A stretch of DNA of 64,000 nt, taken from assembly GCA_012719445.1 (NCBI GenBank), contig JAAYAH010000037.1, positions 1 through 64,000 of the forward strand. The letters run 5' to 3'. Below, piece after piece: positions 846 to 21,621 of the stretch. The stretch is from Actinomycetales bacterium. GTDB lineage: Bacteria > Actinomycetota > Actinomycetes > Actinomycetales > Kineosporiaceae. Made by a program: the position numbers and the translations under genes. The notes below the pieces were generated by a model. It was not told the origin of the DNA. It did no database searches and saw only the letters and a program-made list of their open reading frames with translations. Positions within the stretch are counted from its first letter, which is position 1. Every line of letters starts with the position of its first letter.

Positions 846-3800
846 TTGTCGGTGCGATCAGGATTCCTGGTGCTCGGCGACGTCCAGGCATGGGACGGCG
901 ACGTACGGTTACGGATCGAGCCACGCCAGCGGCAGCTCGTCCTCGCGGCCCTGCTCTGGGACGTCGAGCGGGTGGTGCCGATCAGGGTCCTGACCCAACG
1001 GATCTGGGGTCACCCGGACTCCGACATCGCGCATACATCGCTGCGAGCGCACATCTCCCGCCTCCGCACGGTCCTGGACCAGAGCAGTTGGGGAGTCCCC
1101 GGTGGTGTCCTGGTCCACGACACGGACGGGTACCGGCTCCTGGTGCCGTCCGGCCGCGTCGACCTGCATCGCTTCCGTCAGCTGACCGGGCAGGCCCTCG
1201 ACCTCCCGCAGGAGCCGGCGGTCGAGCGGGAACGGGCCCGGATCCTCACCACCGCGCTCCGCCTGTGGCGTGGCGAGATGCTGGCCGGGTTGGGTGGGAC
1301 CTGGGTCGAGACGGTGCGTACCCGAATGCGGTGCGAGTTCGAGGAGGCCCGACTGGTCTGGGCGTGGAGCATGCTGCGTCTCGGTGACCCGGACCCCGTC
1401 CTGGCCGCTCTCGATCGTCCAGGCATCGACTGCACGGCCACGGAGTCACTGGCCAGGGCGCTGATGACGGCATTGGCGATGACCGGGCGGACCGAGGACG
1501 CCCTGGACTGCTACCACCGGCTGCGGTATCGGGTGCTCTCGGAGCTCGGAACCGAGCCCGGCCCGGAACTGGCCGACCTGTACACCGAGATCCGAGCGGG
1601 CCGGTTCACGGCGGACCGACACCCGGTCCCGGTGACCCGCCCGGCATCCGTGACCCCTCGGCGAGCGGGTGGACCCGGCTCGGTGACCGTCGCGTGCCCG
1701 GCGGGCAGGACGCCGGGACCGGATCGCGCCCTGCCGGGACCGGGACTTCCACCGCCTGCCCAGCTGCCCAACCCGGTCACGGCGTTCACCGGACGCCGCG
1801 ACGAGCTCGCCGGGATGGACACGCTGTCGACGGAGCCCGACGAGACATCGATCATCCTGATCACGGGGACCGCAGGGGTGGGCAAGACCGCTCTCGCGGT
1901 GCACTGGGCCCACCGGATGCGGGAGCGCTTCCCCGACGGGCAGCTGTTCACCGACCTGAGGGGGTATGACCCCGAGCACCCGGCCGACCCGCGGTCCGTG
2001 CTGTCGGGGTTCCTGCGGGCCCTGGGACTGGACGGTGCCGAGATCCCCTCGGAACCCGAGGAGCGAGCGGCCCGGTACCGGAGTCTGATCCGTGGCAGAC
2101 GGTTCCTCGTCGTCATCGACAACGCGCGAGACGTCGAGCAGGTGCGTCCGTTCCTGCCCGACTCACCGACCTGCACCGTTCTGGTGACCAGCCGGGACAC
2201 CATGCCCGATCTCCTTACCGGGGACAGCGTCCGGCGGGTCCCGCTGGGACTCCTTCCCGCCGATGACGCCGAACGGCTGGTCACCGATCTCATCGGCCAG
2301 GACGCTGCCAGCGATCCGCGCGCCGTCCAGGTCGTCGTGCAGCGTTGCGCGCGACTGCCGCTCGCCCTGCGGATCGCCGCCGAGCGGGTCGCCGAGCTGG
2401 CGGGCTCCCGGATGGAGTCGTCGCTGGCCGCGTTGGCGGAGGAACTCGCGGACGAGGAATCCCGCCTGGACGTGCTCGGCGTCACCGGCGATCCGCGTTC
2501 CGCGCCGACCGCGGTGTTCTCCTGGTCCTGTCGTCACCTGGACGACGAGACCGCGCTGGTGTTCCGCATGCTGGGCCTGCACCCGGGACCCGACGTCTCC
2601 TCGCACGCGATGGCGGCGATGACCGGTAGGTCCGTGGAGGCCGCTCGTGCGTCCCTCGACCGGCTGACCCGGGTCACCCTCGCGGAGCCCACCGCTCCGG
2701 ACCGTTACGGCATGCACGATCTGCTGCGCGACTACGCCCGCGGTCTCGCCGCCACGAACGACACCCCCGACCGTCGCAGCCAGGCCCTCACCCGGCTGCT
2801 CGACTACCAGTTCGCCGCCTGCGCCGTGGTCACCACCCTGCTCCCGGCGAAGACGACCCCGCCCCGGGTCCCGGCCCCGGCGGTCGACGTGCCCCTGCCG
2901 GCCCCCGGGGACGCCGCCGCGGCCAGGGCGTGGCTGGACGCCGAACGCCCCGGCCTGGTGCGCTCGATCGTGCACGCCGCCGAGCACGGGTTCCACCAGC
3001 ACGCCGTCGCCCTCGCGGAGACCCTGTGGCTGTACCTCAACTACGGCAACCACCTCGACGAGGGATCCGCGGCCTCCGCCTCCGCCCTGCATGCCGCGCG
3101 GGCGGGTGGCGACCGCACCGGGGAGAGCATCGCCCTGATGAACATGGCCGGCGTCCTGTTCTCCAGGGGGCGGACGGCCGAGTCCGCCGATCACATGGAC
3201 CGAGCCCTCGACGCGATCCGCGAGGGTGATGACCCGGAGACCGAGGCCCTGATCCTGATCAACCTCGGTGTCGTCGAGCGGTTCCTTGGGAAGCTGTCCG
3301 AGGCCGTGACCCACACGGGTGAGGCCCTGGACCTGTGGCGCTCCACCGGCAATCTCGTCGGCCAGGCCCACGCCCTCACCCAGCTCGGCTATCTCCTTCT
3401 GAACTCCGGCGATCGCCCGCGAGCCGAGGAGTACCTCCTCTCCGCCCTCGCTGTCGCGACCGAGTCCGGAGACCTGCGCTCGATCGGCGATGCCCACGAG
3501 GTCCTCGGCGAGGTGTTCGTTGCCGCGGACCGGCTGGAGCTGGCGGCGGAGCACTGCGAACGGGCACTGTCGTGCATGGAGGAGTCCGGGAGCCTCCTGG
3601 AGCAGCGGTCCCCGACCCTGGTCAGGCTCGGCGGTATCCGGCTCCGCCAGGGACTCCACGAGCAGGCCCAGGCCCACTTCGACGAGGCGCTGGCCGCTTT
3701 CGACGGCGTGACCAACCGGACCTACCTGGTCAGCGCCCTCAACGGGCTCGGTGAGGTCTACCGGGTCACAGGTGATCACCGGCAGGCTCTCGACCACTAC

Positions 3801-3983
3801 GTCCGGGCGCTCGTCGTCGCCGAGGAGATCGAGAACGTCGCGGAACAGATCGTGGCCCATCAGGGCCTCGCCGCGGTGTATCGCGACACCGGGGACTCCG
3901 CCTCGGCCGACCGGCACGTCGCGCGGGCCCGCGAACTCGGCGACAGCATCGCGACAGCCGAGACCCCTCGTGCCGGCAGGTGA
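846..3983 (+). CDS. AfsR/SARP-type transcriptional regulator with NB-ARC and TPR domains
   Basis: This is a large pathway-type activator of about 1045 residues. The N-terminal 90 residues look like an OmpR-type winged helix (FLVLGDVQ, then TSLRAHISRLRTVL), followed by a bacterial transcriptional activation domain (VDLHRFRQLTGQA, LATEPGPEL-like end). A nucleotide-binding NB-ARC/STAND ATPase follows, with a clear P-loop GTAGVGKTA near residue 341 and VVIDNARDVEQV as Walker B. The last 300 residues are TPR-like repeats. SARPs often control secondary metabolism, but no biosynthetic cluster lies beside it, so its targets are unknown. Start: GGAGG at 836-840 serves the TTG at 846 or the GTG at 852; the GTG at 777 is also open but adds a tail not usual in the family. 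A -10-like TAGCCT lies at 752-757. Confidence 0.9.
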   Translation: MSVRSGFLVLGDVQAWDGDVRLRIEPRQRQLVLAALLWDVERVVPIRVLTQRIWGHPDSDIAHTSLRAHISRLRTVLDQSSWGVPGGVLVHDTDGYRLLVPSGRVDLHRFRQLTGQALDLPQEPAVERERARILTTALRLWRGEMLAGLGGTWVETVRTRMRCEFEEARLVWAWSMLRLGDPDPVLAALDRPGIDCTATESLARALMTALAMTGRTEDALDCYHRLRYRVLSELGTEPGPELADLYTEIRAGRFTADRHPVPVTRPASVTPRRAGGPGSVTVACPAGRTPGPDRALPGPGLPPPAQLPNPVTAFTGRRDELAGMDTLSTEPDETSIILITGTAGVGKTALAVHWAHRMRERFPDGQLFTDLRGYDPEHPADPRSVLSGFLRALGLDGAEIPSEPEERAARYRSLIRGRRFLVVIDNARDVEQVRPFLPDSPTCTVLVTSRDTMPDLLTGDSVRRVPLGLLPADDAERLVTDLIGQDAASDPRAVQVVVQRCARLPLALRIAAERVAELAGSRMESSLAALAEELADEESRLDVLGVTGDPRSAPTAVFSWSCRHLDDETALVFRMLGLHPGPDVSSHAMAAMTGRSVEAARASLDRLTRVTLAEPTAPDRYGMHDLLRDYARGLAATNDTPDRRSQALTRLLDYQFAACAVVTTLLPAKTTPPRVPAPAVDVPLPAPGDAAAARAWLDAERPGLVRSIVHAAEHGFHQHAVALAETLWLYLNYGNHLDEGSAASASALHAARAGGDRTGESIALMNMAGVLFSRGRTAESADHMDRALDAIREGDDPETEALILINLGVVERFLGKLSEAVTHTGEALDLWRSTGNLVGQAHALTQLGYLLLNSGDRPRAEEYLLSALAVATESGDLRSIGDAHEVLGEVFVAADRLELAAEHCERALSCMEESGSLLEQRSPTLVRLGGIRLRQGLHEQAQAHFDEALAAFDGVTNRTYLVSALNGLGEVYRVTGDHRQALDHYVRALVVAEEIENVAEQIVAHQGLAAVYRDTGDSASADRHVARARELGDSIATAETPRAGR

Positions 3984-4149: not shown

Positions 4150-5670
4150 TCAGCGCTGCAGGGTGAGCAGCCCCGGCCGGTAGGGGAGGAGGCCGTAGTC
4201 GCCGCCTGAGCTGGGCGACCGCCCCTGGTAGAGCAGTTGCAGGTTGCACGGGTCGATGGTCATGGTCTGGTCGGCGTTGGTGCGGATCAGTTCACCGTGG
4301 CTGATGTCGTTGGTCCAGGTGGCGCCACTGTTGGCCTTACCGGCGAAGGGGTTGCTCTCGCTGGTGGCGTTCGGGGTCCAGGAACCGCTCAGGCTGGAGG
4401 AGGTGAAGGAGCGGAAGTAGCGCCCCTGGCTCCCGATCGCCTCGACGATCATGAGGTACTGGTTCTGACCGGCGACCTTGTACACCTGGACCGCCTCGAA
4501 GAGGTTGTTCGTGGTGTCGCTCATGACCACCGTCGACGACGAGCCGAAGCTGCCCGGGAAGTTCCCGATCGGCATGCTGGCCCGGTAGATCTTGCCGTTG
4601 TCACCGGCGAAGAACAGGTACATGTTCTGGCTGTCGCCGATGAGGGCCTGGTCGATGGGGCCGGTGCCGGAGTTGGAGATGCTCCCGGAGAACAGGGTCT
4701 GGGCACCCGACCATCCGTTGACGTTGCTGGGGTTGCTCGACGTCCGGTAGGAGAAGGCCGGACCACCCCACTGGTACGCGAGCACCCAGATGCTCTTCGG
4801 CGCGAAGTAGAACAGTGAGGGCGCGACGGCGGCGAACGGCATCCGGTTCTGGCTGGCCGAGGCCATGCCGGACCAACTGCTGAACAGCCCGAAGTTCATC
4901 GAACCCCAGGCCGATCCGGTGTCGTGGGTGGTGGCGTAGACGAGGTTCTGGCCGTTGTAGGGCGCGTGGGTGAAGTCCTTGAGCGAGACCCAGCCCGACG
5001 CCGGGTTCGCCAGCGAGCCCGTCGAGGTCCAGCGGTAGGTCGACGGAAGGGAGCAGCCACCCGAGGGGCTCGACGTCGTCGTGGTCGTCCGGGTGGTCGT
5101 GGTGCCGCCGCCGCTGGAGCCGGCCGGGTAGAGCTGCCAGGTCTGGTTGCGACCGGCGTAGTCGGTGTACTGGGTGATGTCACCGCCGTCGGCCGTGGAG
5201 GCGTTCATGACCTCCAGCGCCTTGCCGGAGTTGCGGTTGATGAACCGGACGGAGGAGTTGTCGTTGCCGGTGAGCCGCCACTGCTGGTTGGCGCCGTTGT
5301 GGTCGGTGTACTGGTTGACCGGTGCGCTGTTGGCGGTCGACCAGCCCCACACGTCGACGACCTTGCCGGAGTGTCGGTTCTTCAGCCGGTAGTACCCGTC
5401 GCCGGAGGACAGGAACTGGAACTGCTGGTTCGTCGCGTCGGTCCGGGTCCACTGCCGGAACTCCGCGCCGTCGGCGGTCGACCAGTTGTAGAGGTCCAGC
5501 GCCTTGCCGCTGTTAACGTTAACAATGACGTACCACGAATTCACGTCGATCGAGATCGCGGCCTGTGCCGGCGGACTGCCGACGAGGAGACCCCCGACCC
5601 CCAGGGCGAGGGCCACCCCGGCGGCCATCGCCCGACGGTGTCGTTGCCTTCTGCGTGTCGTGTCGTTCAT
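4150..5670 (-). CDS. Secreted GH62 alpha-L-arabinofuranosidase with N-terminal CBM13
   Basis: An exported enzyme of 506 residues expected to remove arabinose side chains from arabinoxylan or arabinan. A signal peptide (residues 1-37, twin basic start, hydrophobic core, cut after AQA) is followed by a ricin-type beta-trefoil CBM13 (about 38-180) with its repeated QxW-type ends (QQFQF, QQWRL, QTWQL). A Thr-rich linker ([15 protein letters not shown]) leads to a GH62 domain starting [17 protein letters not shown]. The expected catalytic residues are visible as [12 protein letters not shown] (base Asp) and [10 protein letters not shown] (acid Glu). Start: ATG with GAGAGG six bases upstream. A LacI-type operator lies 83 bases upstream of the start and a second palindrome further up. 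The gene stands alone, convergent with the SARP gene. Confidence 0.93.
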
Positions 5671-7874: not shown

Positions 7875-8684
7875 ATGGAGAGCCGTAATCCCGTCTTCAA
7901 CCGCAGCCCGGAGTTCAAACGTGGCGGTTACGCCACGTTCGACACCCGGACGCCGAGTTCGGCCGACCTTCAGGACATGTACTCCGCGCCGTCCGCGACA
8001 CCGCTGCAGACCGGACGGATGACCATCGACGACGTCGTGACCAGGACCGCGATGGTCTTCGGCCTGCTCGTCGTCTCGGCCGCGGCGACCTTCACCCTGG
8101 TGGACTTCCTCAACCCGGTGATCCTCTTCGGGTCGGCCATCGTCGGCTTCGTGCTGGCCATGGTCGTGTCGTTCAGCAAGAAGATCAGGCCGGGTCTCAT
8201 CCTCACCTATGCCGTGGTTGAGGGCGTCTTCGTCGGCGGGCTGAGCAAGTACTACGAGACCGCCTTCGAGGGCATCGTCGCCCAGGCCGTCCTCGGAACC
8301 CTCGCCGCCTTCTCGGCGATGCTGGTCCTCTACAAGGTGGGGGCCGTCCGGGCGACGCCGCGGTTCACCCGGATCCTGATGATCTCCCTGGTCGGCTACC
8401 TGGTCTTCAGCCTGGTGCACGTGCTCGGCGTCGTGTTCGGCGCCTGGGACAGCATCTACTGGGGCAGCGACGGTCCCAACGCCCTCGGCATCCTGGTGAG
8501 CGCCTTCGGCGTCATCCTCGCGTCGCTGTTCCTCGTGCTCGACTTCGACTTCGTCGAGCGGGGGATCCGCAACGGGGTCCCGCAGCAGGTCGCCTGGATG
8601 GCGGCCTTCGGGCTGGTCGTCACCCTGGTCTGGCTGTACCTGGAGATCCTGCGGCTGCTGGCCATCCTTCGCGGCAGCGACTGA
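7875..8684 (+). CDS. Bax inhibitor-1/YccA-type integral membrane protein
   Basis: A 269-residue membrane protein. After a polar N-terminus of about 55 residues (NPVFNRSPEF, TPLQTGRMTIDDVVTRT) come seven hydrophobic spans, beginning AMVFGLLVVSAAATFTL and ending VTLVWLYLEILRLLAIL. The central FVGGLSKYYE and the C-terminal DFDFVERGIRNGVP are typical of the actinobacterial YccA/BI-1 group. Family members elsewhere act as pH-gated cation leaks or as protease-linked factors, but the role here is unknown. Start: ATG with GGAGGGA close upstream. A strong terminator follows at 8749-8786. Confidence 0.9.
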   Translation: MESRNPVFNRSPEFKRGGYATFDTRTPSSADLQDMYSAPSATPLQTGRMTIDDVVTRTAMVFGLLVVSAAATFTLVDFLNPVILFGSAIVGFVLAMVVSFSKKIRPGLILTYAVVEGVFVGGLSKYYETAFEGIVAQAVLGTLAAFSAMLVLYKVGAVRATPRFTRILMISLVGYLVFSLVHVLGVVFGAWDSIYWGSDGPNALGILVSAFGVILASLFLVLDFDFVERGIRNGVPQQVAWMAAFGLVVTLVWLYLEILRLLAILRGSD

Positions 8685-8836: not shown

Positions 8837-10180
8837 GTGTCGAGCCCACACCCGGAGGACCCGCCCCCCGGCGGACTCGTGCCGTGGCACCCTCCGCGCG
8901 CGGAACTGGAACTGCTGGAGCTCCTCGCCGTCGGTGCCGTCGAGGACCCGCCGCGCCCGATCCTGGTGCCCGCCGCGCTGGTCGAGGAGGCCGTGCGCAC
9001 CGGCGGGGTGCTCGTCGAGGACGTCGAGGGGACGCCGGTCGTCGCCCTGACCGATGTGACCCCGGTCCTCGACGGCCTCCCGCCGTCCGGTCAGGACCCG
9101 GTGCCCGTCCGGGCCACCACCGGCTTCCTCCGCCCGTTCGCCGACGGCCCGCTGCGCAGGCACCGCCGCACCCCGGCCGAGGTCCGGGCGGAGCTGGCGG
9201 CCGGTGGGGAACGGCCGGTGGTCGCCGTCCCGGTGTCCGCCGCGCTGTCGAGGGTCGCCGTCGCCCGTGCCGCCGAGCGGGCCGCGGCCGGGGCGGCCCT
9301 GTTGTGGCTGGTCCTCGTCGGCGAGGGCCGGCGGGGCGACCTCGCCCCCGAGCCGCTGCTGCGCGCCGTCCGGGCCGGGGCAGCAGAGGTCGCGGGAGCT
9401 CAGGTCGCCGGGGGCCGGGTCGCCGGTGCCGACGGGGCGGGCCACGGGATCGTCGTCCCGGTCGCCGTACCCGCCCTGGCCGATCCCGCGGCCGACGCAG
9501 CGCTGGTGGAGGCGGTTGCCACGGCGTACGGAGCGGGGGAGGTGCTGGCGGTGCCCCCCGGGGACGCCGACCGGTTGCACCGGGCCTCGCGCCGGGAGCT
9601 CAGCCGGGCCCTCCCGCCGCCGTCCACCCGGGGGGTCACCGTGTTCTTCACCGGGCTCTCCGGCTCCGGCAAGTCCACCCTGGCGCGAGGGCTCGCCGAC
9701 CGCCTCCTCGACGACGGCAGGCGGAGGGTCTCGGTCCTGGACGGCGACGGCGTGCGCCGGTTGCTGTCAGCAGGCCTGGGGTTCGGCCGGGCCGACCGGG
9801 ACCTCAACATCCGCAGGATCGGCTTCGTCGCGGCGGAGATCACCCGCCACGGGGGGATCGTCGTCTGCGCCCCGATCGCCCCGTTCGCCGCCGTCCGCGC
9901 CGAGGTCAGGGCGCTGGTGGAGGAGGTGGGGGACTTCGTCCTCGTCCACGTGTCCACCCCGCTCGCCGAGTGCGAGCGGCGGGACCGGAAGGGTCTCTAC
10001 GCGAGGGCGAGGCAGGGGATCATCCCGGAGTTCACCGGGATCTCCTCCCCGTACGAGGAGCCCTCGGACGCGGATCTGAGGATCGACACGTCGACGATCT
10101 CTGTCGACGAGGGGGTCGACCGGGTCTTGGCGCTGCTGGAGCGGGGCGGTCACCTGCCGCCGGACCGGCCGGACGAGTGA
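8837..10180 (+). CDS. cysC: Adenylyl-sulfate (APS) kinase with degenerate N-terminal sulfurylase-like region
   Basis: The last 190 residues form an APS kinase, which phosphorylates adenylyl sulfate to PAPS: the P-loop GLSGSGKST lies near residue 273, then VLDGDGVRRLLS, the FGRADRDLNIRRIGFVA helix and the GLYARARQG loop before FTGISSPYE. The first 260 residues resemble the PUA and catalytic parts of ATP sulfurylase in order (LLAVGAVEDPPRPILVP, VALTDVTPVL, ELSRAL at the end), but I do not see the HxGH/QxRN-type active-site motifs, so this half is probably inactive. There is no cysD/cysN pair beside it. Start: GTG; GACCAT ends six bases before it, consistent with leaderless expression. Confidence 0.85.
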   Translation: MSSPHPEDPPPGGLVPWHPPRAELELLELLAVGAVEDPPRPILVPAALVEEAVRTGGVLVEDVEGTPVVALTDVTPVLDGLPPSGQDPVPVRATTGFLRPFADGPLRRHRRTPAEVRAELAAGGERPVVAVPVSAALSRVAVARAAERAAAGAALLWLVLVGEGRRGDLAPEPLLRAVRAGAAEVAGAQVAGGRVAGADGAGHGIVVPVAVPALADPAADAALVEAVATAYGAGEVLAVPPGDADRLHRASRRELSRALPPPSTRGVTVFFTGLSGSGKSTLARGLADRLLDDGRRRVSVLDGDGVRRLLSAGLGFGRADRDLNIRRIGFVAAEITRHGGIVVCAPIAPFAAVRAEVRALVEEVGDFVLVHVSTPLAECERRDRKGLYARARQGIIPEFTGISSPYEEPSDADLRIDTSTISVDEGVDRVLALLERGGHLPPDRPDE

Positions 10181-10245
10181 TCGGAGCCGCAGTGGGGGCG
10201 GCGGATCAGAGCTTCGGGTATGCGGCACGATGTTACTTGTCGTAC

Positions 10246-10272
10246 GGGCTATCACACTCTGTGTGATAGCCC
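10246..10272. promoter_or_regulatory. Perfect 12-bp inverted repeat upstream of the GS-like gene
   Basis: gggctatcacac (10246-10257) and gtgtgatagccc (10261-10272) pair perfectly over the loop tct. It lies 66 bases after the kinase stop and 70 bases before the next start. It could be an operator (TetR/GntR size) for the GS-like gene or a terminator; the moderate GC content favours an operator. Confidence 0.5.
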
Positions 10273-10342
10273 GGAGGCGTTCCCGCCGGGCGGACCACTC
10301 CGGCGCGACGGATCGCCCCGTCCCTCACCGAGGAGAGCCCCG

Positions 10343-11734
10343 ATGACCGAGCCGGCTATGGTCAGTTCCCCGCTGCCCTACGAGAAGCTCGAGGCCAACG
10401 TCGCCTCCGGCCACGTCGACACCGTGCTCGTGGTGTTCGCCGACCTGCAGGGCCGCCTGCAGGGCAAGCGGGTGCACGCCCAGCACTTCCTCGGCCGGGT
10501 CCGGGAGTTCGGTCTCGACGTGCCGAGCGAGTTGCTGGCCGTCGACGTCGACAACCGGCCGATCGGGGGCTTCGGTGACTCCCACGGCGGCGCGGCCTTC
10601 GGTGACGTCCTGCTCCGCCCCGACCTGTCGACGCTGCGGGCCGTCCCCTGGCAACCCGCCTGCGCGATGGTTCAGTGCGACGTCCGGTGGCCCGACGGTC
10701 GGCCGGTCGAGCAGTCGCCCCGGCAGATGCTGCGCCGGCAGGTCGAGACGGCGAGGGCCTGCGGATTCACCGCCATCGCCGGGACCAAGCTGCAGTTCAC
10801 GGTGTTCGAGGAGACCTACGCGAGGGCGGCGGAGGTCCGTCACCGCGGCCTCATGCCGTCCACCCGGCACGTCCCGGCCGCCTCCGTGCTGGCGACCCAC
10901 CGGATCGAGCCCATGCTGCGGGACCTGCGCAACGCCATGGTCGGCGCGGGGGTGGAGATCGAGGCCCTGGAGGGTCACCACGCACCGGGACAGTACGAGA
11001 TCACCTTCCGGGTCACCGACGTCCTGACCATGGCCGACCAGCACGCCGTCTTCAAGGCGGCGGCCAAGGAGATCGCCTTCCGGCACGAGGCGTCGGTGAC
11101 CTTCATGGCCAAGCACGGCGAGGCCCCGGGCAACGCCGGTCATCTCCACCTCAGCCTGCGCGGCCCCGGCGGCGGGCTGGTGTTCGCCCCGCAGGATCCG
11201 CTGGGCGTCGACGTGGTGGACCTCAGGACGGATGTCTTCCGGCACGTCGTCGCCGGCGTGCTGGAGACCCTGCCGGACTTCACCCTGCTCTACGCGCCCT
11301 ACGTCAACTCCTACAAGCGCCTGGGGGAGAGTTCGTCGGCCTCCACCGCCGTGACCTGGGGCGAGGACAACCGGACCTGTACGGTTCGGGTGCTCGGCAG
11401 GGGACCGTCCCTGCGGCTGGAGAACAGGGTCCCCGGCGCGGACGCCAATCCCTACCTCGCCCTCGCCGCCATGCTCGCGGGCGGTCTGCACGGCATCGGG
11501 AGCTGCCTCCCGCTGCGGGCTCCGTTCATCGGGAACGCCGCGGAGTCCGACCACCCCCGGATCCCCGCCTCCCTGGCCGCGGCGAGGGACGCGTTCGCCA
11601 CGTCCGTCGTCGCAGGCGAGGTCTTCGACAAGGAGGTCGTCGCCCACTACGTCCGGGCCGCGGACGCCGAGCTGGCGGCGTTCGCGGGGGCGGTCACCGA
11701 CTGGGAGCTCACCAGGGGCTTCGAGCGGCTGTGA
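10343..11734 (+). CDS. Glutamine-synthetase-fold protein (GlnA4/gamma-glutamyl-amine ligase type) lacking metal-ligand glutamates
   Basis: A 463-residue member of the glutamine synthetase superfamily, closest by pattern to the GlnA4-type gamma-glutamyl-amine synthetases (FEETYARA, then RIEPMLRDLRNAM). Later motifs are intact: GQYEI, GHLHLSL (metal and ammonia-site histidine), NSYKRLGE, TWGEDNRT and RLENRVPGADANPYL. The usual metal-binding segment E-x-E-F is however K149-L-Q151-F, and the position of the next ligand glutamate before PGQYE is H212. These are three of the residues expected to hold the two catalytic metals. AAG and CAG each differ from GAG by one base. The protein may be catalytically dead or do other chemistry. 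Start: ATG with GAGGAGAG upstream. Confidence 0.85.
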   Translation: MTEPAMVSSPLPYEKLEANVASGHVDTVLVVFADLQGRLQGKRVHAQHFLGRVREFGLDVPSELLAVDVDNRPIGGFGDSHGGAAFGDVLLRPDLSTLRAVPWQPACAMVQCDVRWPDGRPVEQSPRQMLRRQVETARACGFTAIAGTKLQFTVFEETYARAAEVRHRGLMPSTRHVPAASVLATHRIEPMLRDLRNAMVGAGVEIEALEGHHAPGQYEITFRVTDVLTMADQHAVFKAAAKEIAFRHEASVTFMAKHGEAPGNAGHLHLSLRGPGGGLVFAPQDPLGVDVVDLRTDVFRHVVAGVLETLPDFTLLYAPYVNSYKRLGESSSASTAVTWGEDNRTCTVRVLGRGPSLRLENRVPGADANPYLALAAMLAGGLHGIGSCLPLRAPFIGNAAESDHPRIPASLAAARDAFATSVVAGEVFDKEVVAHYVRAADAELAAFAGAVTDWELTRGFERL

Positions 11735-11796: not shown

Positions 11797-12159
11797 ATGG
11801 ACCCGGTGTGGCACGACGACGTCGAGAGGGAGCTGGGGCGGGTCGCCGACCGGTTGCGGGTGATCGGCCCGCGGATGGAGGGGCGCGGCACCGGGCCGCA
11901 CGGGGCGGGCGATCCGGGCCGGGAGGCCGGCGCGGTGCTGGAGTCCGCGCGGGCCGCGGTCCAGCGGCTCGCGGACCTCGCGGCGGACACCGAGGGACTG
12001 CCCCGACGGACCGTCGAGCGCCTGCCAGGGCACGCTCTCGCCGATCAGGTGCTCGTCCTCGGCCACGACCTGCTCGCCGCAGCGCCGGCCGACGAACGCG
12101 GCCGGGAGCCGCTCGAGGCCGGGCACGCCCTGCTCGTGGACCTGCGGAGGTCACTGTGA
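11797..12159 (+). CDS. Uncharacterized 120-residue helical protein
   Basis: A small acidic protein that starts MDPVWHDDVERELGRVADRLRVIGPRM. It is predicted to be mostly helical from its heptad-like Leu/Ala/Val spacing (AAVQRLADLAADTEGL, LADQVLVLGHDLLAAA). No signal peptide or membrane span. It follows the GS-like gene by 62 bases on the same strand. The ATG lies six bases after GACAAT, the same leaderless pattern as the methyltransferase gene at 6080, which supports this start and that the gene is real. I do not recognise a family. Confidence 0.6.
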   Translation: MDPVWHDDVERELGRVADRLRVIGPRMEGRGTGPHGAGDPGREAGAVLESARAAVQRLADLAADTEGLPRRTVERLPGHALADQVLVLGHDLLAAAPADERGREPLEAGHALLVDLRRSL

Positions 12160-12183: not shown

Positions 12184-13353
12184 TCAGCGGACGGTTCGAC
12201 CGAGCACGTCGGACTTGTGTTCCGTGACCCAGGTGTCCAGCTTGTCCTTCGCGATGGCCTGCCACAGCTCGGCGTCCGCCACCCGGTCGAGCACCACGAT
12301 GGACTGCTTGCCGTCGGGACTCCTGCCGGTGCCCTTGACCGGAGCGGTGAGGAACACGACGTCCGAGGAGCGCAGGCTGCGGGCGGAGAAGGCCAGCCCG
12401 CGGATCTCGCCGAAGGTGAACCCGCTGTCGGTGGCGACGGACTTCGTCAGCGCGTCCAGCGACTCGGTGAGCTTGCTCGGGCTCGTCAGCGTTCCCGTGG
12501 AGATCATCTTGGTGAACACGGCTCGGATCCAGTTCTGCTGACGCTTCACCCGGTCGAAGTCGCCGCCGGGGAGGTTGTGCCGCTGCCGGACGTAGCGCAG
12601 CGCCGTCTCCCCGTCCATCTGGTGCGTACCCGCCGTGAAGGAGCTGCCCTTGTAGCCGGTGGTCTGCGGCACGGTGATCGTCACCCCGCCCAGCGCGTCG
12701 GTGATCCTGGTGAAGCCCTCGAAGTCGGCGATGACCACGTGGTCGATGCGGACGTCGGTCAGCTGCTCGACCGTCTTGACCATGAGCGTCGGACCGCCGA
12801 AGGAGAACGCCGCGTTGATCTTGTTGTTGCCGTGGCCGGGGATGTCGACCCAGCTGTCCCTGGGGATCGAGATGACGTAGCCGGCGTCCTTGTCGGCCGT
12901 GAGGTGCGCGATCATGATCGCGTCGGTGCGCTGTGCCCCGGCCTGCCACTGGTTCGGGTCACCGGCGGAGATCCGCGAGTCCGAGCCGAGCAGGAGGACG
13001 TTGACGGCGCCGCCGCTGGCCGGCGCGGGTCGCTCGGCCTCCGGGATCGCCGCGAAGGGGTCGCCGAAGCGCTCGATGTTCGCGTCGAGGCGATGGGAGA
13101 GGGCTCGCAGCCACAGTGCGCCGGTGAGGGCGACCGTCAGCAGCAGCGCGACGATGACCCCGAGGACGAAGAGAGCCCTGCGGCTCCGGCTCCAGGTGCG
13201 CCACCGCGCCCGGAACCCGTGGTCAGCCTTCCGCCGGGAGTGCTTCCGCCTGCTCTCGACCGGGCGCTCGACCGCCGGCATCGGCGCCGGGAACGGGGCG
13301 TCGACCTCCGGGTCCTTGATCATGGGCGCGACATCACGCGCGATATCCGGCAC
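12184..13353 (-). CDS. LytR-CpsA-Psr (LCP) family glycopolymer transferase
   Basis: A membrane-anchored enzyme of about 389 residues expected to attach wall glycopolymers (for example arabinogalactan or teichoic-type chains) to peptidoglycan. A basic cytoplasmic tail (RRKHSRRK) precedes one membrane span, ALFVLGVIVALLLTVALTG. The LCP domain shows the family landmarks: VNVLLLGSDSR, GAQRTDAIMIAHL, GYVISIPRDSWVDIPGHG, NKINAAFSFGGP, VDHVVIADF-like segment, GEXALRYVRQRH-type motif ETALRYVRQRHNLPGGDFDRVKRQQ. Start: GTG at 13353 with GGAAGG nine bases upstream; the ATG at 13323 has no ribosome site. It is convergent with the small gene ending at 12159. Confidence 0.9.
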   Translation of the reverse strand: MPDIARDVAPMIKDPEVDAPFPAPMPAVERPVESRRKHSRRKADHGFRARWRTWSRSRRALFVLGVIVALLLTVALTGALWLRALSHRLDANIERFGDPFAAIPEAERPAPASGGAVNVLLLGSDSRISAGDPNQWQAGAQRTDAIMIAHLTADKDAGYVISIPRDSWVDIPGHGNNKINAAFSFGGPTLMVKTVEQLTDVRIDHVVIADFEGFTRITDALGGVTITVPQTTGYKGSSFTAGTHQMDGETALRYVRQRHNLPGGDFDRVKRQQNWIRAVFTKMISTGTLTSPSKLTESLDALTKSVATDSGFTFGEIRGLAFSARSLRSSDVVFLTAPVKGTGRSPDGKQSIVVLDRVADAELWQAIAKDKLDTWVTEHKSDVLGRTVR

Positions 13354-16315: not shown

Positions 16316-17710
16316 ATGAGAGCACGATTCATCGGCGCGACGGTTGTCGCCCTGCTCGCCTCGGCGTTCGTCGCGGCCTCGCCGGCCCAGGCGGCGGCGG
16401 GGATCCGCGTCAGCGGTACGAACATCGTCGAGGCGAACGGCAGCAACTTCATCATGCGTGGCACCAGCCACGCCCACACCTGGTACCCGAGTCAGACCAG
16501 CTCGTTCGCCAACATCAAGGCCGCGGGCGCGAACACGGTGCGGGTCGTGCTCAGCGGCGGCCGGTGGACGGCGAACGGTGTCAGCGACGTGGCCAACGTC
16601 GTGTCGCTGTGCAAGCAGAACCGACTGATCTGTGTGCTGGAGAACCACGACACCACGGGCTACGGCGAGCAGTCCGGCGCCTACACCATGACCCAGGCGG
16701 TGCAGTACTGGAACAGCGTCAAGAGCGCGCTGGTCGGCCAGGAGAACTACGTCATCATCAACATCGGCAACGAGCCGTTCGGCAACGGCTCGGCGTCCAA
16801 CGACTGGCCGACCGAGACCGCCAACGCGATCCGGGCGATGCGTTCCAACGGGTTCGAGCACGCGCTGATGGTTGACGCACCGAACTGGGGCCAGGACTGG
16901 CAGTTCATCATGCGGGACAACGCCCAGACGGTGGCGGCGGCCGACTCGCAGAAGAACACGATCTTCTCCATCCACATGTACGGGGTGTTCGACACCGCGT
17001 CCGAGGTGACCTCCTACGTGTCGGCGTTCCGGACCATGGGCCTGCCGCTGGTGATCGGCGAGTTCGGGCACAACCACTCGGACGGCAACCCGGACGAGGT
17101 CACGATCATGCAGCAGTCGATCGGATGGCTGGGCTGGTCGTGGAGCGGCAACGGCGGCGAGGTGGAGTACCTGGACCAGGTCACCAACTTCGACCCCAAC
17201 CAGATGACCTCGTGGGGCACGCAGCTCTTCTCCCAGATCCGGGCCTCGGCGCGTGAGGCCAGCATCTACAGCGGCCAGACCCAGACCACCACGCGGACCA
17301 CGACCACCACGACGACCCGGACGACTCCGCCGACCACCACGACGACCACGACCCGGACGACTCCGCCGACCACCACGACCCGGACGACTCCGACGACGAC
17401 CACGTCGCAGGGGTCGGGCGGGTGCACCGCGGCCTACTCGGTGCAGAGCCAGTGGCCGGGCGGGTTCGTGGCCAACGTCAACGTCACCGCGGGCAGCTCG
17501 GCGATCAACGGCTGGCGCGTCACCATGACCCTGCCCAGCGGGGCCGCCGTCAACAACATGTGGAACGGCGTCAACTCCGGCACCAGCGGCACCGTGACCG
17601 TGACCAACCAGAGCTACAACGGTCGCCTCGGCGCCGGGCAGACCACCAACTTCGGCTTCGTCGGCACCGGCACCGGAGCCGGAGCCACGGTCTCCTGCAC
17701 CGCCGGCTGA
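16316..17710 (+). CDS. Secreted GH5 (subfamily 8-like) endo-beta-mannanase with CBM2
   Basis: An exported endo-1,4-beta-mannanase of 464 residues. Signal peptide to about residue 26 (cut after AQA), then a GH5 barrel (27-315) opening GIRVSGTNIVEANGSNFIMRG, typical of GH5_8 mannanases. The acid/base is the Glu in NIGNEPFGNG and the nucleophile the Glu in VIGEFGHNH. A linker of Thr with Arg and Pro (about 325-362) joins a C-terminal CBM2 (CTAAYSVQSQWPGGF to VSCTAG) with end cysteines and surface Trp residues for cellulose or mannan. Start: ATG with GAGAGG just upstream. Its CBM2 is almost the same as that of the esterase at 20242, suggesting recent module exchange or duplication. Transcription ends at the hairpin 17773-17815. 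Confidence 0.92.
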   Translation: MRARFIGATVVALLASAFVAASPAQAAAGIRVSGTNIVEANGSNFIMRGTSHAHTWYPSQTSSFANIKAAGANTVRVVLSGGRWTANGVSDVANVVSLCKQNRLICVLENHDTTGYGEQSGAYTMTQAVQYWNSVKSALVGQENYVIINIGNEPFGNGSASNDWPTETANAIRAMRSNGFEHALMVDAPNWGQDWQFIMRDNAQTVAAADSQKNTIFSIHMYGVFDTASEVTSYVSAFRTMGLPLVIGEFGHNHSDGNPDEVTIMQQSIGWLGWSWSGNGGEVEYLDQVTNFDPNQMTSWGTQLFSQIRASAREASIYSGQTQTTTRTTTTTTTRTTPPTTTTTTTRTTPPTTTTRTTPTTTTSQGSGGCTAAYSVQSQWPGGFVANVNVTAGSSAINGWRVTMTLPSGAAVNNMWNGVNSGTSGTVTVTNQSYNGRLGAGQTTNFGFVGTGTGAGATVSCTAG

Positions 17711-17772
17711 TCGAGTTCCGGTCGACGGCGCCGTCCGGCTGATCCACCGGGTCGGTCCCGGCACCGACCCAC

Positions 17773-17815
17773 ATCGGTGAGGGGCCCCGCGCGACGCGCG
17801 GGGCCCCTCACCGAT
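17773..17815. terminator. Bidirectional terminator hairpin, 20-bp stem
   Basis: A perfect 20-base stem (17773-17792 with 17796-17815) around the loop gac. It lies between the convergent mannanase and msrA genes and can serve both strands. Confidence 0.9.
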
Positions 17816-17879
17816 GCTCGGGTCGTCCGCTCCGGCGGCTCGTTCGCTCCGGCGGAGCGTTCGCGGCAGCTCGTCGTCC

Positions 17880-18509
17880 TCAGGCGTCGGTCACCCGGGC
17901 GCTGGTGCCGACGGGACAGCTGACACCGGTCCCGTGGTCGGGGCAGTACCCCTGCGGCACCGTGTACAGGTACTGCTGGTGGTACTCCTCGGCGTAGTGG
18001 AACGGGCCTGCCTCGGTCGCGGGTCTCCCCTCGGTGGTGATCGGGCCGAGGCCGGCGGCGAGGAGCGCGCTCCGGTAGGCCTCGCGGGTCTCCTCGTAGG
18101 CGAGGGACTGCTCCCGGGTGGTCCAGTGCACGACCGAGCGGTACTGCGTGCCGACGTCGTTGCCCTGCCGGTTGCCCTGGGTGGGGTCGTGGGACTCCCA
18201 GAACACCCGCAGCAGCTCCCGCTCCGGCAGTCGCTCGGGGTCGTAGCCGACGAGCACGGTCTCGGCATGGCCGGTCAGCCCGGTGCACACCTCCTCGTAC
18301 GTGGGATCGACCGTGGTCCCGCCCTGGTAGCCGACGGCCGTCGCCACCACGCCGGGAAGCTGCCAGAACGTCTTCTCCGCGCCCCAGAAGCAGCCCATCC
18401 CCAGATAGATCACCGAGGTGCCGTCGGGCCACGGGCCGCGCAGCGGCGAGCCGAGGACAGGGTGGATCGCGGGTGTCCCACGGGGGATCCGGCTCGATCG
18501 GAACGACAT
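17880..18509 (-). CDS. msrA: Peptide-methionine (S)-S-oxide reductase MsrA
   Basis: A 209-residue cytosolic repair enzyme that reduces S-methionine sulfoxide in proteins. The catalytic motif [13 protein letters not shown] lies near residue 40, followed by [26 protein letters not shown] and [23 protein letters not shown], all hallmarks of the family. Further cysteines near the C-terminus (GYCPDHG, SCPVG) could act in resolving the disulfide. Start: ATG with GGAAGGAG eight bases upstream, which discards 30 further open codons. The gene is single and convergent with the mannanase gene. Confidence 0.95.
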
Positions 18510-18773
18510 GCTGGCTCCTTCCGGGACGGCGGTCCGGGGATCGCGCGGGTGGATGCCGATCACGGCTGGGCGCCGATCACGGGTCCGGGTGCCGATCACG
18601 AGGACGGGTGCCGATCACGGGTCCGGGGTCTGTGCCGGTCGTCGGACACAACGCTGCTGAGGGCAGCCTTACTCCCGGTGCGCCCGACTCGTCCCGCCCG
18701 GCCCGCGTCCACTGGGATGACGGGACCTCGGCGTGAGGGTGGCCCGGCGGGGTGACGCGTAGCGTGTCGGGCC

Positions 18774-20114
18774 GTGGACGAGCACACTCCCCCCGCCCCG
18801 GACCCTTCGGTACGCCGGGATCCCGAGCCCTCGCCGGGGCCGTCCCGTCGACGTGGGCGGCACGCCGGGTCGGGCACCCGGAGCACGGGCTGGGACGGTC
18901 GCGGCTTCGCCACCAGGGCGATCCACGTCGGCTCCGAGCCGGACCCGGCGACCGGCGCGGTGGTCACCCCCGTGTACCAGGTGAGCACCTTCAAGCAGGA
19001 CGGCGTGGGCGAGCCCCGCCGGGGTCTCGGCACCGGGTACGAGTACTCCAGGACCGCCAACCCCACCCGGACCGCGCTCGAGGACTGCCTCGCCGCGCTG
19101 GAGTCCCCCCGGGCCGGAGGGATCGGTTCCGTCGGGGCAAGGGCCTTCGCGTTCGCCTCCGGACTGGCGGCCGAGGACTGTCTGCTGCGGGCGTCGCTGG
19201 CGCCGGGGGACCACGTCGTGCTGCCGGAGGACGTCTACGGCGGCACGCACCGGCTGGTCAGCAGGGTCTGCGCGAGCTGGGGCGTCGCCCACTCGGCGGT
19301 GGCGGCCGAGTGCGACGCCGTGCGTGAGGCGGTCGTCGCCGGGCTCACCCGCCTCGTCTGGGTGGAGACGCCGTCCAACCCGCTGCTCTCGGTCGCCGAC
19401 ATCGTCGCCCTCGCCGAGGTCGCCCACGAGGCGGGCGCGCTGCTCGTCGTCGACAACACCTTCGCGACCCCCTACCTCCAGCGGCCGCTCGCCCTCGGCG
19501 CCGACGTCGTCGTGCACTCGACGACGAAGTACTGCGGTGGGCACTCCGACGTCGTCGGTGGGGCGGTCGTGGTCAAGGACGGGGTCGGTGTGCCATGGCT
19601 CGACGGCGTCGCCGGATGCTCGGCCGACCTGACGGAGCGGGTGGGTTTCGTGCAGAACGCCGCAGGGGCGGTCGCAGGCCCGCTCGACGCCTGGCTGGTG
19701 TCTCGCGGACTCAAGACGCTCGAGGTCCGGATGGAGCGGCACTGCGACAACGCCGAGCGGATCGCGGAGTTCCTGGCCGAGCATCCCCGGGTCGTCCAGG
19801 TGTACTACCCGGGGATGCCGGACCATCCGGGGCACGAGGTGGCGACGCGGCAGATGCGGCGGTTCGGCGGCATGGTCAGCTTCCGGGTCGAGGGGGGAGA
19901 GGAGGTCGCGCTCGCGGTGTGCAAGGCCACGGAGATCTTCGCCCTCGGTGAGTCCCTGGGCGGGGTGGAGTCCCTCATCGAGCATCCCGGCCGGATGACC
20001 CACGCCTCGGTGGCCGGTTCGCCCCTCGCGGTTCCCGACGATCTCATCCGGCTCTCCGTCGGCATCGAGGACGTGGAGGACCTGCTCGCCGATCTGGACC
20101 GTGCCCTGTCCTGA
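18774..20114 (+). CDS. metB: Cystathionine gamma-synthase (PLP-dependent)
   Basis: A 446-residue PLP enzyme of the Cys/Met metabolism family. After a proline-rich, probably disordered N-terminus of 40 residues come FATRAIHVGSEPDPATGAVVTPVYQVSTF, the ring-stacking YEYSRTANPTR, and the PLP lysine in VVHSTTKYCGGHSDVVGG. ESLIEHPGRMTHAS is typical of bacterial cystathionine gamma-synthases; a gamma-lyase cannot be fully excluded. It would join O-succinyl- or O-acetyl-homoserine with cysteine in methionine synthesis. The GTG start is eight bases after TAGCGT and has no Shine-Dalgarno, so it is likely leaderless. Confidence 0.9.
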   Translation: MDEHTPPAPDPSVRRDPEPSPGPSRRRGRHAGSGTRSTGWDGRGFATRAIHVGSEPDPATGAVVTPVYQVSTFKQDGVGEPRRGLGTGYEYSRTANPTRTALEDCLAALESPRAGGIGSVGARAFAFASGLAAEDCLLRASLAPGDHVVLPEDVYGGTHRLVSRVCASWGVAHSAVAAECDAVREAVVAGLTRLVWVETPSNPLLSVADIVALAEVAHEAGALLVVDNTFATPYLQRPLALGADVVVHSTTKYCGGHSDVVGGAVVVKDGVGVPWLDGVAGCSADLTERVGFVQNAAGAVAGPLDAWLVSRGLKTLEVRMERHCDNAERIAEFLAEHPRVVQVYYPGMPDHPGHEVATRQMRRFGGMVSFRVEGGEEVALAVCKATEIFALGESLGGVESLIEHPGRMTHASVAGSPLAVPDDLIRLSVGIEDVEDLLADLDRALS

Positions 20115-20133
20115 CCCTGCCGCTGCTTCCCCT

Positions 20134-20196
20134 CGCCGACCGGTGGCTAAGTGGGCTCAAATCCATGAAATGAGCCCGTTTCGCCACCGGTCGGCG
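20134..20196. terminator. Composite nested hairpin between convergent genes
   Basis: An outer stem of 14 bases (20134-20147 with 20183-20196) encloses an inner stem of 7 bases (gggctca at 20153-20159, tgagccc at 20171-20177). The inner loop is AT-rich. It lies between metB and the esterase gene and likely ends both transcripts. Confidence 0.7.
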
Positions 20197-20241
20197 GTGC
20201 GCAGAGGGTGCGGACGGCGCGCCGTGCGCGGGTGGGGTGGG

Positions 20242-21621
20242 TCAGGTGGCGGTGCAGGTGACGGTGGTTCCGGCTCCGGTGCCGTTGCCGACGAAGCCGA
20301 AGTTGGTGGTCTGTCCGGCGCCGAGGCGGCCGTTGTAGGCGGCGTTGGTGACGGTGACGGTTCCGCTGGTGCCGGAGTTGGCGCCGTTCCACAGGTTTCC
20401 GATGGAGGCGCCGCTGGGCAGGGTCATGGTGACCCGCCAGCCGTTGATCGCGGAGCTGCCCGCGGTGACGTTGACGTTGGCCACGAACCCGCCCGGCCAC
20501 TGACTCTGCACCGAGTAGGCCGCGGTGCACCCGCCAGACCCCTGCGACGTGGTCGTCGTGGTGGTCGGCGGAGTCGTCCGGGTCGTGGTGGTCGTGGTGG
20601 GGGTCGTCGGCCGCGTGGTCGTCGTGGTGGTGGTCGGTGTGGTCCGTGTCGTGGTGGTCGTCGTGGTGGTCGTGGTCCGCGTGGTGGTGGTGTCCAGACC
20701 GAAAAAGGCGAGAGTGTAGGCGGCCATCCCGCTGGACAGGATGTTGTGCGGGCCGCCGGAGATGCTGATCCCCTCGACCGGGGCCTGGGTGCCGTTACTG
20801 CCGTACCGGGTGCGGGTCCACGACGCCTGGGGGGAGTCGGTGGAGGCTGGCGTCTGGCTCACGCCGTTGAGGTTCGTCCACTGCTTGATCTCTTCGGCGA
20901 AGTTCGGGTAGCGGAGCGTGTCGTCCGCGGTGCCGTGCCAGAGCTGCATCCTCGGGTAACGACCGGTGTAACCCGGGTAGGCGGCGCGGGCCAGGTCACC
21001 CCACTGCTGGGCGGTCTTGGTGGTCTGGCCGTTCGCGCACTCGCTGTTCCAGGTGGACCCACCCGTGGTGGCGAAGCAGCCGAACGGAACCCCGGCGAAG
21101 GCCGCGCCTGCGGTGAAGACATCGGGGTAGTCCCCGAGCAGGACGTTCGTCATCATCGCGCCGGAGGACGCTCCCATGGCGAACACCCGAGTCGGATCGG
21201 CGTTGTACCGCTGCTTGACGTAGCTGACCATGGATGCGATCCCGACCGGGTCGCTCCCGCCGTTCCGGGTCAGCGCCTGTGAGCTGTAGACGTCGAAGCA
21301 CTGACCGCTCCGGGTCGCCTCCGGGAAGACCACGATGTAGCCGTACCGGTCGGCCGCGGTGACGAACTCCCTGGCCATCCCCGAGTACATGGCCTGCGCG
21401 GTGCCGGTGCAGTAGTGGATCGACACGAGGATCCCCGGCCGGGCAGCGACCGTGTCGGGGACGTACACGTACATCCGGAGGTTGCTCGGGTTGGTGCCGA
21501 AGTTCGTCACCTGCTGGAGCGAGGCGGCCGACGCCGGTCCGGCCAGCCACACGCCGGTGGCGGCCAGGGCTGCCACCGTGCACCCGGCGATCCTGCCCAG
21601 GGCGCTCGTCCACGTTCTCAT
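20242..21621 (-). CDS. Secreted PHB-depolymerase-type (CE1-like) esterase with CBM2
   Basis: An exported esterase of 459 residues, probably an acetylxylan or feruloyl esterase. Signal peptide to about residue 33 (cut after ASA), then an alpha/beta-hydrolase domain of the PHB-depolymerase family: MYVYVPDTVAARPGILVSIHYCTG, the nucleophile in FAMGASSGAMMTNVLL (G-x-S-x-G), FAGVPFGCFATTG, and LWHGTADDTL with the likely acid Asp. A long Thr/Arg/Pro linker (about 315-360) leads to a CBM2 nearly identical to that of the mannanase. Start: ATG with GAGGAGA upstream. The mannan- and xylan-active enzymes with matching CBM2 suggest joint action on plant wall. Confidence 0.88.
   Translation of the reverse strand: MRTWTSALGRIAGCTVAALAATGVWLAGPASAASLQQVTNFGTNPSNLRMYVYVPDTVAARPGILVSIHYCTGTAQAMYSGMAREFVTAADRYGYIVVFPEATRSGQCFDVYSSQALTRNGGSDPVGIASMVSYVKQRYNADPTRVFAMGASSGAMMTNVLLGDYPDVFTAGAAFAGVPFGCFATTGGSTWNSECANGQTTKTAQQWGDLARAAYPGYTGRYPRMQLWHGTADDTLRYPNFAEEIKQWTNLNGVSQTPASTDSPQASWTRTRYGSNGTQAPVEGISISGGPHNILSSGMAAYTLAFFGLDTTTTRTTTTTTTTTTRTTPTTTTTTTRPTTPTTTTTTRTTPPTTTTTTSQGSGGCTAAYSVQSQWPGGFVANVNVTAGSSAINGWRVTMTLPSGASIGNLWNGANSGTSGTVTVTNAAYNGRLGAGQTTNFGFVGNGTGAGTTVTCTAT

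Follow-up and report, generated by a model that had tools for sequence, protein, structure and literature searches.

A glutamine synthetase-fold protein of a Kineosporiaceae genome with three metal ligands replaced: a probable retained pseudoenzyme

When a protein has the fold of glutamine synthetase (GS), is encoded by a complete gene and has exchanged half of the residues expected to hold its catalytic metals, is it still an enzyme, is its gene a relic on the way out, or has it been kept for something else? The question is posed by a gene in a soil actinobacterium of the Kineosporiaceae, whose draft assembly consists of 283 contigs; the window considered here is the whole stretch analysed, the first 64,000 nucleotides of contig JAAYAH010000037.1. 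A preliminary description of the gene had noted the exchanged ligands and proposed that either a pseudoenzyme or a new chemistry was more likely than decay.

The gene, its fold and its descent

10343..11734, + strand: the GS-fold protein of 463 aa (P0001, a pseudo-GlnA4), delimited by open reading frame, Pfam and predicted structure
10330..10337, + strand: Shine-Dalgarno-like GAGGAGAG, with the ATG at 10343 beginning 5 nt after it

The frame is open throughout and encodes a full-length GS-fold protein, with a GC content by codon position of 0.73/0.48/0.95. The Pfam model Gln-synt_C matches with 274 bits over 334 residues, and that for the N-terminal beta-grasp gives a weak match only. Structure prediction, as the preliminary description had advised, returned the GS fold: the AlphaFold model (pLDDT 91.2, pTM 0.92) has its best structural match in 5dm3 (Z 51.6, rmsd 1.2 over 374 residues). 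The input alignment for this model consisted mostly of intact GS proteins, so that a GS fold was to be expected of it; the model shows that the sequence is compatible with that fold, from which ring formation does not follow. The closest solved structures are the GS-like proteins Csal_0679 (5dm3) and that of Brucella melitensis (11zs, Z 49.5), 41 and 38% identical over the aligned residues, and in the alignment both have E-x-E-F and the GE motif intact, which P0001 does not.

Residue mapping, closest structures and operon type, with Streptomyces coelicolor GlnA4 compared via its published mapping, place P0001 as a descendant of the GlnA4-type gamma-glutamylethanolamide synthetases, enzymes that join glutamate to amines, and both full-length homology to GlnA4-type gamma-glutamylamide synthetases and their GS fold are present. 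It scores below the NCBIfam equivalog cut-offs for glutamine synthetase GlnA of type I and type III (174.5 of 429 and 201.3 of 469.6 bits), and an intact GlnA4 relative also falls under the NCBIfam glutamine synthetase equivalog cut-off. With S. coelicolor GlnA4 (SCO1613; PMC6529630) it shares subfamily by residue mapping, fold, glutamate-binding arginines and ADP-phosphate residues, and the likeness extends to the operon type of its intact relatives, with aldehyde dehydrogenase, dehydrogenase and gamma-glutamyl hydrolase. Unlike GlnA4, it is without three of the six metal ligands, the equivalent of E269 and the flap Phe, and its genome is without orthologues of the aldehyde dehydrogenase and the hydrolase.

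Active-site residues and their fate among relatives

The six ligands of GlnA4, E156, E158, E219, E226, H274 and E359, correspond to E129, E131, E212, E220, H269 and E357 of Salmonella GS (GSISt) (PMC6529630). P0001, offset by seven residues from GlnA4 at E156/E158/E219, has K149, Q151, H212, E219, H267 and E360, so that the E/E/E/E/H/E of GlnA4-type synthetases reads K-Q-H-E-H-E.

10787..10789, + strand: K149 (AAG), in place of GSISt E129, an n2 metal ligand; Glu in 45 of 45 aligned intact relatives
10793..10795, + strand: Q151 (CAG), in place of GSISt E131, n1 ligand and glutamate contact; from codon, alignment and PMC6529630
10976..10978, + strand: H212 (CAC), in place of GSISt E212, n1 ligand; from codon and alignment
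10997..10999, + strand: E219, n1 ligand kept (GSISt E220); from alignment and codon
11126..11128, + strand: P262, in place of the glutamate-binding GlnA4 E269 (GSISt N264); from alignment and published mapping
11141..11143, + strand: H267, n2 ligand kept (GSISt H269); from alignment and codon
11420..11422, + strand: E360, n2 ligand kept (GSISt E357); from alignment and codon

The assignment of K149, Q151 and H212 to the positions of Glu129, Glu131 and Glu212, made at the outset from the sequence, is borne out by the three codons and by the published GlnA4 mapping. Might other residues nearby have taken over? In the alignment the ExE segment (T-K-L-Q-F-T) has no compensating Glu one or two positions off, and E210, two before H212, sits where intact relatives have Lys.

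The statement that the other family motifs are intact holds only in part: E219, H267 and E360 are kept, but other active-site residues have changed. Within the glutamate-binding set of GlnA4 (E158, E269, G270, R325, R361) two are replaced, by Q151 and P262, and G263, R326 and R362 are kept; the residue at P262 is Pro in all eight degenerate members of the family. The ADP-phosphate residues H276 and R348 are both kept, as H269 and R349. S265 has become Ala, and the flap Phe (GlnA4 F331, at the position of GSISt E327) is S332. Across 45 intact relatives 151 positions are at least 97% invariant: P0001 retains 116 of them and has changed 35, its relative G002 retains 132, and the species of the related genus g5 retain 90-97. 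The C-terminal region of P0001 is the best kept (24/27 invariants) and the N-terminal region keeps 25/37. Its losses show no significant excess in the active site (4/12 against 31/139, p 0.29); for the g5 species tested such an excess gives p 0.03-0.05.

How common such changes are was read at the six ligand positions in 186 non-redundant relatives from genome collections. EEEEHE is present in 177, and the nine exceptions are P0001 alone with KQHEHE, G002 (SEEEHE), six g5 species (S/A-QTDRQ) and a second copy at locus L047 (EGLEHE); the replacement of three ligands is not a matter of chance. Orthologues with the same K/Q/H triad, whose search had been suggested, do not occur among the 186, the triad being unique to the window genome. 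What is found within the Kineosporiaceae is a graded series, with one ligand of six changed in G002, three in P0001 and all six in g5. Membership of the family was judged from shared contigs (G001 being Kineosporiaceae MAG contig L005, and G011 Kineosporia sp. R_H_3). In an order-level search (88 of 396 genomes matched) every locus read outside the Kineosporiaceae keeps EEEEHE, as do the best 30 read outside the family in a class-level search (208 of 395 matched). Close orthologues with all three glutamates had been named in advance as an argument against the pseudoenzyme reading: the nearest intact ones (~49-56% identical) do keep them, but their genomes still hold the pathway considered below, and in G002, the degenerate relative closest to P0001, E131 and E212 are still present and E129 is gone.

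The eight degenerate Kineosporiaceae proteins group together in two quick trees (SH-aLRT 98 and 97.9). A careful 53-row tree sets g5 apart from the window genome (G000) and G002 with weak support, which leaves a single origin unproven; it is nevertheless favoured by the common replacement E262P and the common locus arrangement. An unrooted tree of BaxI (a membrane protein encoded nearby), APS kinase, GlnA and GlnA2 joins G000 to G002, the g5 species to each other, and the intact genomes to G003, a genome in which the GS gene is deleted. This branching fits one loss in the degenerate lineages and a separate deletion in G003.

The degenerate copy at L047 (4093-5388, in an uncultured bacterium) lies 3' of an intact GlnA4-like gene, an aldehyde dehydrogenase and a hydrolase. 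This tandem second copy is most similar to its neighbour (40.7%) and represents an independent case, unrelated to the Kineosporiaceae eight.

Locus order, pathway genes and selection

7875..8684, + strand: Bax-inhibitor-1-like membrane protein (BaxI), the syntenic anchor of the locus comparison
8879..10180, + strand: APS kinase with an N-terminal shortened ATP-sulfurylase-fold domain, 5' of the GS gene in all degenerate genomes
10245..10273, strand not assigned: perfect 13-bp inverted repeat with a 3-nt loop, CGGGCTATCACAC-TCT-GTGTGATAGCCCG, between APS kinase and GS
11797..12159, + strand: c4, a small conserved protein of 120 aa with no Pfam match, 3' of the GS gene in degenerate genomes

Intact loci of the Kineosporiaceae (L005, L008 and L200-L202, several of them split over separate contigs) have the order BaxI, APS kinase, TauE, GS, aldehyde dehydrogenase, (SDR), hydrolase, c4. 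Degenerate loci have BaxI, APS kinase, pseudo-GS and c4 (BaxI being off the contig in G002), and G003 has BaxI, APS kinase and c4, with GS cleanly deleted. The aldehyde dehydrogenase, SDR dehydrogenase and Peptidase_C26 gamma-glutamyl hydrolase of the intact operons are the genes with which Streptomyces has been proposed to use ethanolamine by way of GlnA4 (PMC6529630), and these pathway neighbours are absent from the P0001 locus, to which the search for the SDR gene was confined. Orthologues of the hydrolase (at least 67% identical) and of the aldehyde dehydrogenase (at least 82%) occur in intact genomes only and in none of the degenerate ones, which have one 44% paralogue of each, the hydrolase in G004 and the aldehyde dehydrogenase in G008. 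Sister genera with an intact GlnA4 still have the pathway genes; loss of catalytic residues and loss of the pathway thus go together.

APS kinase and pseudo-GS are separated by 13-107 nt in g5 and by 162 nt in the window, where the intervening stretch contains the palindrome. The palindrome could be an operator or a tail-less terminator. No second site within 3 mismatches of its 21-bp core was found genome-wide, no similar palindrome in the sister-locus intergenic stretches checked, and neither a sigma-70 promoter nor a T-tailed terminator near P0001. The c4 family (~108-134 aa, no Pfam match) lies 3' of APS kinase or GS in Kineosporiaceae; a functional tie between c4 and GS was considered and is weakened by G003, where c4 directly follows APS kinase and there is no GS.

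Comparison of the six g5 species gives a median dN/dS of 0.20 for the pseudo-GS (0.10 for the closest pair, G006-G008). Values for genes nearby are 0.25 (APS kinase), 0.26 (c4), 0.31 (BaxI) and 0.10 (a cysteine-synthase-like gene downstream); of the five neighbours in the comparison, four have a dN/dS higher than or similar to that of the pseudo-GS. The six g5 species all share a fixed new state at nineteen canonically invariant sites, Q151, T212, D219, R267 and Q360 among them. Since g5 has changed six ligands and lost H269 and R344 as well (P0001 numbering), selection there does not track catalysis. The 'clear constraint' first ascribed to the protein is accordingly well founded for g5. For P0001 we infer it indirectly, from the intact frame, the codon-position pattern, the ribosome-binding site and the relatives, because between-genus dS is saturated, so that no between-genus dN/dS was used, and the genus of the window is represented by one genome.

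A retained pseudoenzyme and the rival readings

P0001 is probably a catalytically dead descendant of GlnA4, retained for a non-catalytic role in a cluster of APS kinase, pseudo-GS and small protein. A pseudoenzyme was already the first of the two readings offered from the sequence, and it has been strengthened by the clade of progressive loss and by the missing downstream pathway genes. Damage to both metal sites and to the glutamate site, together with the missing acceptor pathway, most likely puts the two-metal gamma-glutamyl-phosphate reaction beyond it. Against a dead enzyme it counts that R326, R362, H269, R349 and three metal ligands have been kept, and that the losses are not significantly concentrated in the active site.

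The course of events may be envisaged as follows. The pathway would have been lost in an ancestor shared by some of the Kineosporiaceae, the genes for aldehyde dehydrogenase, SDR dehydrogenase and gamma-glutamyl hydrolase between GS and c4 disappearing together with TauE before GS, and the GS gene would have been left in place, flanked by APS kinase and c4. The metal site may then have eroded, by different steps in each lineage, with the fold preserved. We infer that P0001 is inactive and most likely still a GS-type ring. Instead of carrying out ATP-dependent gamma-glutamyl transfer it would act by binding or assembly, whether as a scaffold, as a sensor of some ligand or as a protein that binds a partner; the fold has been kept, and so has part of the cavity that binds phosphate and carboxylate. 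Speculatively, a basic residue in the n2 metal site (K149 in P0001, R267 in g5) may replace the metal. A more specific version, in which a ring-shaped pseudo-GS with a basic side chain for the catalytic metal is the binding or regulatory partner of the adjacent APS kinase, itself fused to a shortened ATP-sulfurylase-fold domain, is unlikely.

What else could the gene be? There is a modest chance that it is a relic in slow decay, its pathway lost and the gene drifting under relaxed selection though still undisrupted. The terminal branch of P0001 is indeed long (0.77 against 0.2 for the intact G001 in the quick tree, and 1.1 in the 53-row tree), the invariant sites lost are many and not concentrated in the active site, GS has been deleted outright in G003, and glnA3/glnA4 pseudogenes are reported in mycobacteria (PMC2667176). 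Yet frames are intact in eight genomes of three genera ~50% apart in protein sequence, the GC pattern by codon position is strong, dN/dS in g5 is 0.1-0.2, and P0001 has a good ribosome-binding site and a dedicated palindrome; as G003 is placed among the intact lineages in the marker tree, its deletion is an independent loss.

An enzyme of altered chemistry, working with one metal or none or transferring another group, is a good deal harder to uphold and quite unlikely. The retention of E219, H267, E360, R326, R362, H269 and R349, and selection on the gene in related genomes, would suit it, but both metal sites are damaged, the glutamate-binding residue is Pro in every degenerate member, the partner enzymes are gone, and g5 is under selection despite its further losses; the 'new chemistry' once proposed is without positive support. 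GS rings consist of many like subunits whose neighbours share active sites, and two further GS genes are present in the genome (C155, C167), so that P0001 might be a regulatory subunit that assembles together with one of the cell's own active GS proteins, GlnA or GlnA2; with only ~28-31% identity to these paralogues, and no linkage to them, this is very improbable. That sequencing or assembly error produced the changes is scarcely credible, draft of many contigs though this is, as at least four separate base changes would be needed in a clean frame, and related losses recur in seven independent genomes.

The closest precedent for a retained pseudoenzyme of this fold is lengsin, the vertebrate lens pseudo-glutamine synthetase (2j9i) and the best-known GS pseudoenzyme (PMC2667176), in which a GS fold is kept and there is no catalysis; in P0001, too, a GS fold goes with lost catalytic residues. 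Lengsin belongs to a separate lineage and has a eukaryotic lens role, and specific kinship is not indicated: among the PDB matches listed 2j9i is the weakest (E 6e-4), against 1e-90 or better for 5dm3 and 11zs. Bacterial GS-fold pseudoenzymes are little described. A search for literature on Kineosporia GS gave nothing relevant, a full-text search pairing 'glutamine synthetase' with 'pseudoenzyme' gave no title containing either term, and lengsin was the sole inactive GS met in that literature. The observation is real and its ancestry well explained, and P0001 is probably a rare bacterial case of a GS-fold protein with a non-enzymatic job. One bacterial family has, at one conserved locus, intact, one-ligand-lost, three-ligand-lost, all-ligand-changed and gene-deleted states, with the pathway lost in step, and these states form a natural series well suited to studying how a metabolic enzyme outlasts its own catalytic activity, and why. 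It is also a warning for annotation, since a fold-based pipeline would name these proteins glutamine synthetases.

The neighbouring APS kinase deserves a remark of its own. Neither Pfam models nor PDB sequences match its N-terminal ~245 residues, which are predicted to form a shortened ATP-sulfurylase fold, with a structural match to 1r6x (Z 16.6, 223 aligned of 386) and nearest two-domain relatives in 1i2d, 2gks and 3cr8. Like the two-domain APS kinase of Thiobacillus denitrificans (3cr8, Z 19.3) it has an N-terminal ATP-sulfurylase-fold domain, though a much shorter one, which may be a second degenerate enzyme domain adjoining the pseudo-GS. Further off in the window are a large SARP/AfsR-type regulator with NB-ARC and TPR domains (870-3983, +), adjoined by a GH62 arabinofuranosidase with a ricin-type lectin domain (4150-5628, -), a sucrase/ferredoxin-like protein (PF06999; 13568-14557, -) near a LytR-CpsA-Psr protein (12184-13323, -), and, at 16316-21621, plant-biomass genes for a GH5 cellulase with CBM2 and an esterase/PHB-depolymerase-like protein, likewise with CBM2.
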